Shown here in pieces: positions 6,469-8,066 of a DNA stretch of 10,662 bases. The position numbers and the translations under genes were made by a program. How positions within the stretch are numbered: position 1 is the first letter of the stretch; each line of letters begins with the position of its first letter. A model generated the notes under the pieces. It worked only from the letters and a program-made list of their open reading frames with translations. It was not told the origin of the DNA and searched no databases. The DNA comes from an uncultured Eubacteriales bacterium (lineage in GTDB: Bacteria > Bacillota > Clostridia > Oscillospirales > Acutalibacteraceae). The stretch is from NCBI GenBank assembly GCA_934408795.1, contig CAKRVQ010000019.1:1-10662 (forward strand), written 5' to 3'.

Positions 6469-6589
6469 GACAACCAAAGGGCAATTAAAAGGCAACCAAG
6501 ATACAACCGACGGGCAACTAATTGGTAACTAATGGGTAACCAACGGACAACTAACGGACAACTAACGGATAACCAACAGATAACCGAGC
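6469..6589. repeat. Array of eleven degenerate 11-bp direct repeats
   Basis: Eleven consecutive units of exactly 11 bp fill 121 bp without gaps. The plus-strand consensus is roughly GRYAACYAACG, or CGTTRGTTRYC on the minus strand. Units 8 and 9 (6546-6556, 6557-6567) are identical (GACAACTAACG); neighbours differ at one to four positions and the outer units are most diverged. The AA at positions 4-5 is kept in all eleven units and the following C in ten. The array ends 48 bp upstream of the -35 box of the capsule promoter. The 11-bp period is close to one DNA turn, so each unit shows the same face of the helix. The period is not a multiple of 3 and no gene crosses it, so it is not a protein repeat. 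Confidence 0.85.
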
Positions 6590-6690
6590 GGCGGCCGAGA
6601 GTGATAAAGGGGCGGCGGGCCGACAGGAGGCAGGGTTCGCTATTTCGTCAACTCAAGCCGGCAAGAATGATACTGAACCTGTCTATTCTG

Positions 6691-6884
6691 CTTATGGCAA
6701 CACCCCGCCTCAGGCAGCGCCGCGAAGCGCCGAAGGCGCTTCAAACGGGCAACGGTGCATTTGTGCTTTCAAAGGGTCCTGCTTTTTTTGATAAGGCGGC
6801 AATTTTTGCCACGCTTTCCTGCCCGTTTCGCGCCCTTCTTTGAAGGGCGCGCGGCGCTGCCTGAGGGCGGGGTGTTGCCATAAG
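6691..6884. repeat. Structured palindromic element E1 (long terminal inverted repeats, four-stem fold)
   Basis: The outer arms 6691-6724 and 6850-6884 are complementary over 34 bp with one bulged base. Inside are three further pairings. First, GAAGCGCC-GAA-GGCGCTTC (6724-6742). Second, AAACGGGCA with TGCCCGTTT (6743-6751 with 6820-6828). Third, a perfect 10-bp hairpin CGCGCCCTTC-TTT-GAAGGGCGCG (6829-6851). The central loop has T-rich runs and GGCAA-TTT-TTGCC (6798-6810). Together they make a four-way branched fold. CTG directly flanks both outer ends (6688-6690 and 6885-6887), a possible 3-bp target duplication. No credible ORF lies inside. The layout and much of the sequence recur in E2 at 7844-8021, so this is a repeat family: a MITE-like element, a structured RNA, or a REP/BIME-like repeat. 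Confidence 0.8.
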
Positions 6885-6919
6885 CTGACGGGAAGAACCG
6901 TGAAGAGCATATGAAAGAA

Positions 6920-6967
6920 GCCGCCCGTAGGACCTTCTCCGTTTGCGGAGAACACCCTACAGGCGGC
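6920..6967 (-). other. Nested hairpin downstream of the short-chain dehydrogenase gene
   Basis: Three stacked stems share one axis. GCCGCC/GGCGGC (6920-6925 with 6962-6967), then after a 1x1 mismatch GTAGG/CCTAC (6927-6931 with 6956-6960), then after a 4x4 internal loop TCTCCG/CGGAGA (6936-6941 with 6946-6951) capped by a 4-base loop. In the minus-strand transcript it lies about 45 nt after the dehydrogenase stop and is followed by TTCTTTC, so it may end that transcript or protect its 3' end. The U run is too poor to call a sure intrinsic terminator. Confidence 0.45.
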
Positions 6968-6981
6968 GTATATTTTCAATA

Positions 6982-6997
6982 AGTGCTGCGCAGCACT
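6982..6997. repeat. 16-bp perfect palindrome after the dehydrogenase stop codon
   Basis: AGTGCTGCGCAGCACT is a perfect palindrome beginning 14 bp past the dehydrogenase stop. As RNA it would give a 6-bp stem with a GCGC loop, followed on the minus strand by TTATTG, only a weak terminator context. A protein-binding palindrome is the alternative. Confidence 0.45.
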
Positions 6998-7010
6998 CGC
7001 GGTCGCCGAT

Positions 7011-7796
7011 CTAACGGTTTTTTTCGGTCTTTGCCGCGATGTATTTTTTCTCCCAGATATTCATAAGAGCCGAATGAGGCAGAAGCTTTGAAAGGAAGCA
7101 ATGGAAACGGTTATATGCTCCGTACATCGACACATCTTTTCCGCGCTTGGCATCCTTTATTGCGCGGGCGACGACCTTGTCCGGCATCACCATGGGTTTT
7201 GCGAATGTGTTTTTTGATCTCACATCTATGTCGGCGCGATCGAAAAATGCGGTTTTGACCCAACCCGGGCAGACACAGGTGACGGTTATCCCCTTACTTT
7301 TCAATTCTCTTGCGATCGCCCGCGAATAAAACTTAACAAAGCTTTTTGAAGCAGCATATACAGCGAAATGCTGGAGCGGATTATATGTCGATTCCGAACC
7401 GAGTTCGATTATTTTTCCGCCCTCTTTCATATATTTGACGGTTATGTAGGTCATCTTTACGAGGGCGGTCACATTGAGGTCGATCATCCCGAGCTGACTG
7501 TCGAGCGACTCGGCGCAGGAGTCGCCGAGCTTGCCGTATCCGGATGCATTGACAAGATACGCGACCTCGGCGTCACGGTTCTTCAGTTCGGTCTCATATA
7601 CATCAAAGCTTGACGGATCGGTTAGATCAAGCGGCAGCACCCTGCTTGCGGTCTTGAGTAAGGAAGCGGTCTCTTTCAGCTTCTCTTCTCCCCTTGCGAT
7701 AAGCCAAATCTCATCAAACCCGCCTTCTTTATCAAGCTGCAGGGCGAATTCCTTACCTATTCCCGAGGACGCGCCTGTTACGACCGTGCTCTTCAT
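7011..7796 (-). CDS. Classical short-chain dehydrogenase/reductase (SDR)
   Basis: A 261-aa cytosolic NAD(P)-dependent oxidoreductase of unknown substrate. The Rossmann motif is TGASSGIG (7-14). NASGYG (83-88) takes the place of the usual NNAG. The catalytic set is N108, S134, Y147 and K151 (YAASK), with the standard 13- and 4-residue spacing. CPGWVKTAF (176-184) matches the PG motif after the catalytic lysine. Arg35 after the second strand suggests NADP(H). Family length is typical. AAGGAG lies 10-11 bases before the ATG. It is isolated: 270 bp containing E2 separate it from the ABC genes, and 787 bp separate it from ugd. I see no good promoter of its own. The C-terminal basic/aromatic region (about 225-261) recalls DltE-like and ketoacyl-reductase-like SDRs that act on lipid substrates, but that is a guess. 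Confidence 0.85.
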   Translation of the reverse strand: MKSTVVTGASSGIGKEFALQLDKEGGFDEIWLIARGEEKLKETASLLKTASRVLPLDLTDPSSFDVYETELKNRDAEVAYLVNASGYGKLGDSCAESLDSQLGMIDLNVTALVKMTYITVKYMKEGGKIIELGSESTYNPLQHFAVYAASKSFVKFYSRAIARELKSKGITVTCVCPGWVKTAFFDRADIDVRSKNTFAKPMVMPDKVVARAIKDAKRGKDVSMYGAYNRFHCFLSKLLPHSALMNIWEKKYIAAKTEKNR

Positions 7797-7887
7797 AATT
7801 ATATATACTCCTTTTTAATAAATCTGCGCGGGTAAGCAGACGGACGGCGGCGCCGCGATACGCGCCGAAGGCGCGCATAAAAGGGCA

Positions 7888-7921
7888 CGGCGGAGGTAAC
7901 TGTCATCCGCCGCGCTTTTTT
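7888..7921 (+). terminator. Terminator-like hairpin in E2, plus strand
   Basis: CGGCGGA (7888-7894) pairs with TCCGCCG (7906-7912) around an 11-base loop. CGC and then six T (7916-7921) follow. The form is that of an intrinsic terminator on the plus strand. There is no plus-strand gene upstream in this window, so it may simply be part of the element or block antisense transcription. Confidence 0.45.
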
Positions 7922-7941
7922 CTGCAGCCGCTTCGCTGCAG

Positions 7942-7977
7942 AAAAAGCGACGGCATATAAAACGGCATCAGCCGTCG
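7942..7977 (-). terminator. Terminator-like hairpin in E2, minus strand (end of ABC operon)
   Basis: Reading leftward, CGACGGC (7977-7971) pairs with GCCGTCG (7954-7948) around a 16-base loop. One further base (C, 7947) and then five T (7946-7942) follow on that strand. It lies about 90 nt past the ABC permease stop and probably ends the TetR-ABC transcript. The large loop lowers confidence. Confidence 0.5.
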
Positions 7978-8066
7978 TGCCCGTTTGCGCCCTCCATAAG
8001 GAGGGCACGCGGCGCCGCCGTGGGATCATGCCTTGCGCAGGTCGCGAAAATTGAACTTATGCCGCT

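Follow-up and report, generated by a model that had tools for sequence, protein, structure and literature searches.

The closest described kind to the elements considered here is likely that of the REPIN-type extragenic palindromes of bacteria. REPINs are extragenic inverted doublets for which both spacer length and hairpin capacity matter, and their spacers show compensatory changes; the authors of that work suggest that transposition passes through folded single strands (PMC3116915). REPs favor convergent and co-directional gaps, with most of the convergent ones no more than 20 bp from gene ends in two genomes, and they are believed to act as transcribed RNA (PMC3733652). In organelles, the selfish palindromic repeats of Volvox place noncoding palindromes with 3–5-nt loops across intergenic DNA (PMC2670323), and the same source cites double-hairpin elements of fungal mtDNA. 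Template switching between inverted repeats has been reported to homogenize their arms and to invert their spacers, with spacer inversions seen only where the arms exceed 9 bp (PMC8604942), and has also been reported both to create and to maintain hairpins (PMC8794818).

Two palindromes, E1 and E2, in the 10,662-nt stretch of DNA analyzed here (the window) and their relatives in one metagenome-assembled genome (MAG), G001, resemble REPINs and BIMEs in occurring as many short extragenic copies, few of them in divergent gaps, and in combining inverted conserved arms with a variable spacer that keeps its pairing through compensatory changes. The G001 elements are repeated, extragenic, and arranged as palindromic inverted doublets, the features by which REPs and REPINs are recognized. 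They differ in being cloverleaves of ~160 bp with a median closing stem of 29 pairs and three hairpins that vary widely between elements, and in that neither a RAYT nor a consistent tag was found with them in G001. MITEs are likewise noncoding, dispersed, and bounded by terminal inverted repeats; the cloverleaves differ from them in having no target-site duplication (26 copies), a body that is almost wholly palindromic, and no parent transposon that could be found. The Volvox and fungal elements are organellar and, as far as that source describes them, form single or nested hairpins and not a four-arm junction (PMC2670323). Hairpins arising by template switching (quasipalindrome correction) share arm homogenization and loop inversion with the cloverleaves, but, as far as those reports describe them, they are single-site events rather than the way in which a family of repeats evolves. 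No description of cloverleaf repeats in Clostridia was found in the open-license literature. E1 and E2 most likely belong to a dispersed DNA repeat that resembles REPINs but has a new architecture and in which covariation is made at the DNA level, a repeat that adds a more complex architecture to the bacterial extragenic palindromes, in Clostridia.

Architecture and Surroundings of E1 and E2

Folding and inverted-repeat reading place E1 at 6690–6885 and E2 at 7844–8021, both without assigned strand, on either side of a short-chain dehydrogenase/reductase gene (7011–7796, minus strand) that is given for context only. An earlier note, which had drawn E1 at 6691–6884 and E2 at 7844–8021 as related branched palindromes flanking a dehydrogenase gene, is thus borne out with a small adjustment of the ends. 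Each element is predicted to fold into a four-way junction from which one closing stem and three further arms extend. In E1 (parts given on the plus strand), the outer stem of 34 pairs is formed by a left arm (6690–6723) and a right arm (6851–6885) that carries its single bulge, and it encloses hairpin 1 (GAAGCGCC-GAA-GGCGCTTC, 6724–6742), a middle arm of 86 nt with an open center (AAACGGGCA...TGCCCGTTT, 6743–6828), and hairpin 3 (GCGCCCTTC-TTT-GAAGGGCGC, 6830–6850). In E2 (also on the plus strand), an outer stem of 14 pairs (left arm, 7844–7857; right arm, 8008–8021) encloses hairpin 1 (GCGCC-GAA-GGCGC, 7862–7874), a middle arm of 114 nt containing an inner hairpin (AAAAGGGCACGG...CCGTCGTGCCCGTTT, 7875–7988), and hairpin 3 (GCCCTCC-ATAA-GGAGGGC, 7989–8006). 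Both middle arms are long and pair only in part.

The components follow the same order and orientation in E1 and E2, as the earlier note had stated. Both elements have outer arms ending in GGCRGCGCCGCG/CGCGGCGCYGCC, the hairpin GCGCC-GAA-GGCGC, a middle stem that pairs GGGCA with TGCCC, and a closing hairpin with an arm resembling GCGCCCT. In sequence they agree over the innermost 12 bp of the closing stem, in hairpin 1, where the middle arm starts with GGGCA/TGCCC, and in parts of hairpin 3; outside these parts the two sequences differ and pairing is retained, again as had been claimed. With RNA parameters and short flanks, the two strands fold at −138 and −137 kcal/mol for E1 and at −119 and −122 kcal/mol for E2, with z-scores of −8.3 to −11.6 over both strands of both elements against 200 dinucleotide shuffles. 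With DNA parameters, the plus strands give −85 (z = −13.9) for E1 and −73 (z = −10.8) for E2. None of the 200 shuffles was as good in any of the six folding tests, so that both palindromes lie far beyond shuffled sequence. E2 is picked up by folding energy but falls below the stricter paired fraction of 0.72 used in the genome scan described below.

All genes of the window lie on the minus strand, in the order polysaccharide cluster (epimerase, 4,6-dehydratase, glycosyltransferases, and UDP-glucose dehydrogenase), E1, short-chain dehydrogenase, E2, ABC transporter pair, and TetR regulator, the names being best family matches of which several are under NCBIfam cut-offs. Between the dehydrogenase stop codon and E1 stands a separate strong hairpin followed by TTCTTTC (6920–6968, minus strand). 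It is likely the ordinary terminator of the dehydrogenase gene and is absent from the list returned by a simple terminator scan of the window. Upstream of the UDP-glucose dehydrogenase gene, positions 6505–6585 hold 5–6 tandem copies of an 11-bp unit (about TAACCAACGGA).

Related Elements in G001 and Other Genomes

Among named genomes, the best-scoring relative of the dehydrogenase is 52% identical and lies in the MAG Ruminococcaceae bacterium RUG13660 (G001; piece L004), which also carries relatives of the epimerase (86%) and of the dehydratase (65%) on piece L305. A single-protein scan of genome contigs with the dehydrogenase gave no relative, and an alignment scan gave relatives of at most 53% identity throughout. 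One pattern match in G001 turned out to be a complete cloverleaf sited between reading frames. A covariance model built from E1 and E2 alone, for which E-values are rough, found 10 distinct G001 loci at E ≤ 0.1 when run over the window and 60 G001 pieces; nine of the 10 overlap three-arm elements found independently by the scan described next, and the tenth, which that scan missed, folds as a cloverleaf. Core sequence and architecture thus put E1 and E2 in one kind with the elements of G001; among the hairpins, only the one with the GAA loop is evidently shared in sequence.

The G001 sample (contigs 1–60, the first 20 kb or less of each; 1,049,036 bases, about half of the genome, GC 0.489) was scanned for inverted repeats whose fold has 9 or more pairs in the closing stem, two or more arms, and no less than 72% of its bases paired, the paired fraction being adopted because energy-only detection gives many false matches in high-GC genomes. 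The scan returned 110 elements, including 84 that have exactly three arms, versus 10–15 elements (2–4 three-arm) in each of six dinucleotide shuffles; at a paired fraction of at least 78%, 70 three-arm elements remain versus 0–1 in five shuffles. The 84 three-arm elements have a median length of 165, a closing stem of 29 pairs, arms of 10, 18, and 10 pairs, and 3 unpaired junction bases. In those at least 75% paired, 200 of the 208 single-loop hairpins are distinct in sequence, and the loop has 3 or 4 bases in 167, GAA/TTC being the most frequent (39). Several have a long and open middle arm, as E1 and E2 do, and many middle arms have stems flanked by A-runs and T-runs. The midpoints of 78 of the 84 fall outside genes predicted by a simple in-house caller (80% coding). 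The 70 that lie between two predicted genes occupy 28 convergent, 35 co-directional, and 7 divergent gaps, where gap length would predict 13.1, 43.6, and 13.3, respectively (chi-square p = 2e-5), and the median distance to neighboring 3′ ends is 172 nt.

Over 56 pieces from genomes other than G001, the top two hits of the covariance model are three-arm cloverleaves in genomes G046 and G025; over 394 sampled genomes of the order, searched with stricter filters and seven candidates scored per listed genome, one matches at E ≤ 0.001, namely G001. The search of related genomes that the earlier note had proposed did recover relatives. A first sequence pattern applied to 398 family genomes gave 9 matches in 8 genomes, versus 15 in the reversed control, which is chance level, one of the 9 being a real element. 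A second pattern matched 35 of the 394 order genomes, and 50 of its 56 places outside G001 were folded: three-arm elements with at least 78% paired occur at only two of these places, one each in G046 and G025, while a place in genome G244 reaches 73% and another, in G070, forms just one long hairpin. In 40 genomes sampled by one stretch each (20 from the family and 20 chosen; 3 stretches were unreadable), no three-arm element at least 78% paired was found, and six were present at 72–74%. G025 and G046 have one element in common at the same place, in surroundings 88–93% identical, which argues against an artifact and shows stability; G046 carries a second element besides. Among viral contigs, the first pattern matched three stretches that look like coding coincidences and the second gave at least 120 matches; phages gave no match, and plasmids only one short match, inside the dehydrogenase gene. 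Two other inverted structures were noted. A palindrome in G560 (L346:14164–14279), starting GTAGGGGCG, has four inner arms and an unrelated core and is possibly another element in similar style, and a long inverted repeat in G070 (L381, G070:C60:16500–17300) contains ACTATATATAGT repeats and folds as one stem with 84% of bases paired.

Covariation, Arm Homogenization, and Loop Inversion

A core pattern recovered 39 places in G001, the single genome examined for its genus, versus 5 for the reversed control. Once 7 copies whose hairpins are different and 1 copy lying on a contig end are left out, there remain the 31 copies of subfamily A, in which the core GCGCGCCGC (nine core pairs) is invariant through the choice of search pattern. 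Both sides have changed in 35 of the 58 pairs, amounting to 141 cells, versus a shuffle mean of 38.6 (0 of 500 as high) and 9–42 cells for slid structures. The compensatory variation that the earlier note had read from two elements is thus statistically firm in the 31 G001 copies.

The paired arms of one copy agree with each other better than the same arms agree between copies: mismatch within versus between copies is 0.118 versus 0.274 in the closing (outer) stem, 0.077 versus 0.236 in the middle stem, and 0.029 versus 0.152 in the third. This excess of agreement means that copies carry private, matched changes. The short-armed first hairpin shows no such effect over the 31 copies (0.048 within versus 0.047 between).

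The loops vary in a related way. In the middle hairpin of the 31 copies they read TTT (9), GTT (5), AAA (4), AAC (3), and GAA (3), with seven others once each, TTC among them. Leaving out homopolymers (13 of the 31 loops), 18 copy pairs are reverse complements, versus 1 related by reversal alone and 3 by complement alone; letter shuffles average 8.1 and never reached 18 in 5000 trials. Third-hairpin loops at least 80% alike comprise 14 pairs best related by reverse complement, 22 best related by identity, and none by reversal or complement, and exact matches only give 1, 0, and 0 for reverse complement, reversal, and complement. With loop borders derived from folding in 30 copies (one of the 31 left out), the same three counts are 10, 1, and 2 for the middle hairpin and 2, 0, and 0 for the third. 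In all of these counts the loops are short (3–8 nt) and the copy pairs are not independent. The first hairpin, with arms of 4–5 bp, has TTC in 27 of the 31 copies, never GAA, and no reverse-complement pair, a count from which flipped loops could have been excluded, since the subfamily filter demanded T as the first loop base; none of the 7 left-out copies resembles a copy with a flipped first loop. Reverse-complement loops therefore occur in the two long-armed hairpins of the subfamily and not in the short-armed one. The G001 pattern matches template switching as it has been reported, including its absence from the short-armed hairpin.

The closing stem of one element (L317:5385–5565) is perfectly paired for ~10 bases past the subfamily consensus, as if the flank had been mirrored, and two further elements (L103:16344–16481 and L105:1679–1864) also have very long closing stems. 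These extended stems fit palindrome growth through template switching.

Origin of the Pairing and Competing Explanations

On RNA, G-U pairs are tolerated and A-C pairs are not, so that a fold selected on a transcript should leave a strand-specific trace. In the paired cells of the 31 copies, G-T (40) does not exceed A-C (53; p = 0.21), with 37 other mismatches. Wobble pairs on the two strands number 127 versus 130 over 70 elements, and 59 sense versus 46 antisense (p = 0.24) in the 29 elements between co-directional genes; 15 tRNAs of G001, by comparison, gave 50 versus 27. The strand-symmetric covariation, the arm homogenization, and the loop inversion look like the work of a DNA-replication process and not of RNA selection. 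The explanation favored here, with moderate confidence, is that E1 and E2 are intergenic DNA palindromes with a predicted four-arm fold, likely REPIN-like, whose arms are kept complementary by template switching rather than by selection on RNA. In such a process a copying strand would pass one arm, fold back or jump, and then copy the other arm; this arm-to-arm switch would homogenize the arms and could flip the loop. Template switching as the agent is inferred from sequence patterns in one subfamily of one MAG, and the same process may have shaped E1 and E2. The earlier note's step from compensatory variation to selection on structure is accordingly supported for the covariation itself but not for selection on RNA structure, given the strand symmetry, arm homogenization, and loop inversion; selection on DNA structure may also act. 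An RNA structure is ordinarily proved by compensatory base changes; in this family such changes appear to be made on DNA without regard to strand and have flipped loops as their fingerprint, which is a warning for covariation-based searches for noncoding RNA. Rewriting of arms at the DNA level could explain perfect hairpins without RNA selection, and this naturally occurring family, with dozens of copies in a single genome, offers a direct genomic test bed for the origin and maintenance of hairpins.

Selection on a DNA fold is possible, at a distinctly lower probability, and is not mutually exclusive with template switching: a host or mobile-element protein could bind an extruded cruciform or folded single strand, with selection compensating changes in the arms. 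Strand-symmetric covariation could arise in this way as well, the four-way design recurs with few unpaired junction bases (median 3), and folded single strands are the transposition intermediates proposed for REPINs (PMC3116915). Some hairpins, however, run to at least 20 nearly perfect pairs and are unrelated in sequence, which would exceed the needs of a binding site, and loops that are reverse complements at one site require a mechanism and not selection alone. A bolder form of the template-switching account, held only tentatively and less likely than not, is that the cloverleaves form an altogether new class of mobile DNA in bacteria, which would spread as folded single strands, with the three hairpins constantly rewritten by template switching, the fold alone inherited, and the sequence left free.

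A structured noncoding RNA family, with pairing selected on the transcript, is unlikely. The predicted RNA folds are very strong, covariation is present, and for REPs a role as transcribed RNA is likewise assumed (PMC3733652), but G-U does not exceed A-C and the sense excess of wobble pairs is not significant, whereas the tRNAs gave 50 versus 27, and loops are present in both complements. E1 has 1 wobble pair on the strand that matches the transcript of the neighboring genes versus 7 on the other, and E2 has 2 on each. Nor is there an Rfam match: the three in the window are all far under the gathering score, and in six G001 pieces nothing except one tRNA reached threshold, in keeping with the earlier note's failure to recognize a named RNA.

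It is similarly improbable that the elements serve as bidirectional transcription terminators or 3′-end stabilizers. Their two-fold excess in convergent gaps would also suit a function at 3′ ends, A-run/T-run-flanked stems stand in many middle arms, and a strict scan finds a separate terminator facing the element for only 5 of the 31 copies, so that the elements could substitute for one. Against this, they lie a median of 172 nt from 3′ ends, whereas most convergent REPs of two genomes are within 20 bp of gene ends, and the dehydrogenase has its own hairpin ahead of E1.

Because subfamily A consists of many copies of one ~160-bp consensus at many sites, copying is indicated, and transposition or a copying process of some sort may have spread the family. 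No target-site duplication was detected in the 26 of 31 copies with recognizable ends (permutation p = 0.17–0.94 over six lengths). No filled/empty site pair was seen, the sole orthologous pair (G025 and G046) having the element at the same place; a 164-bp indel between these two genomes is not a cloverleaf. Ordinary REPINs moved by a RAYT transposase are a quite unlikely explanation. The elements are extragenic, 52 of 72 matches to the REP-like arm of subfamily A stand in inverted doublets, and compensatory changes are reported from REPIN spacers too (PMC3116915), yet G001, a possibly incomplete MAG, yielded no RAYT with flanking repeats. Its one Y1_Tnp (PF01797) match is a 150-aa protein, IS200-like by size, with no cloverleaf within the 3,357 bases of its piece (L331, G001:C8), where by inspection the neighbors of this single Y1 transposase gene are a tRNA and an EF-Tu-like frame. 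The subfamily A flanks carry no general GTAG or CGTC tag, although 5 of the 62 flanks have CTGACG (complement CGTCAG) beyond the closing stem versus 0.6 expected. TGACGA is likewise present there in 5 of 62 (0.6–0.7 expected), and these hexamers are possibly a remnant end signal.

Long palindromes are attacked by SbcCD. An SbcD match is absent from G001, G025, and G046, which may be incomplete, and is at least weak in 24 of the 30 other genomes; SbcC and SbcD are both clear in only 4 of 33. Clear loss does not single out the carriers, so that loss of SbcCD as a permissive factor is a lead only.

A metagenome assembly artifact is very improbable, for although the relatives used are metagenome assemblies and subfamily arms lacking a mate lie near contig ends in 6 of 11 cases, the identical architecture appears in four assemblies, one element sits at the same place in two genomes 88–93% identical, and the arms contain mismatches. 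The six mateless arms are at L087:89, L305:12985, L309:12620, L314:8766, L316:41, and L322:4049, and assembly of the MAG seems to break at cloverleaf palindromes.
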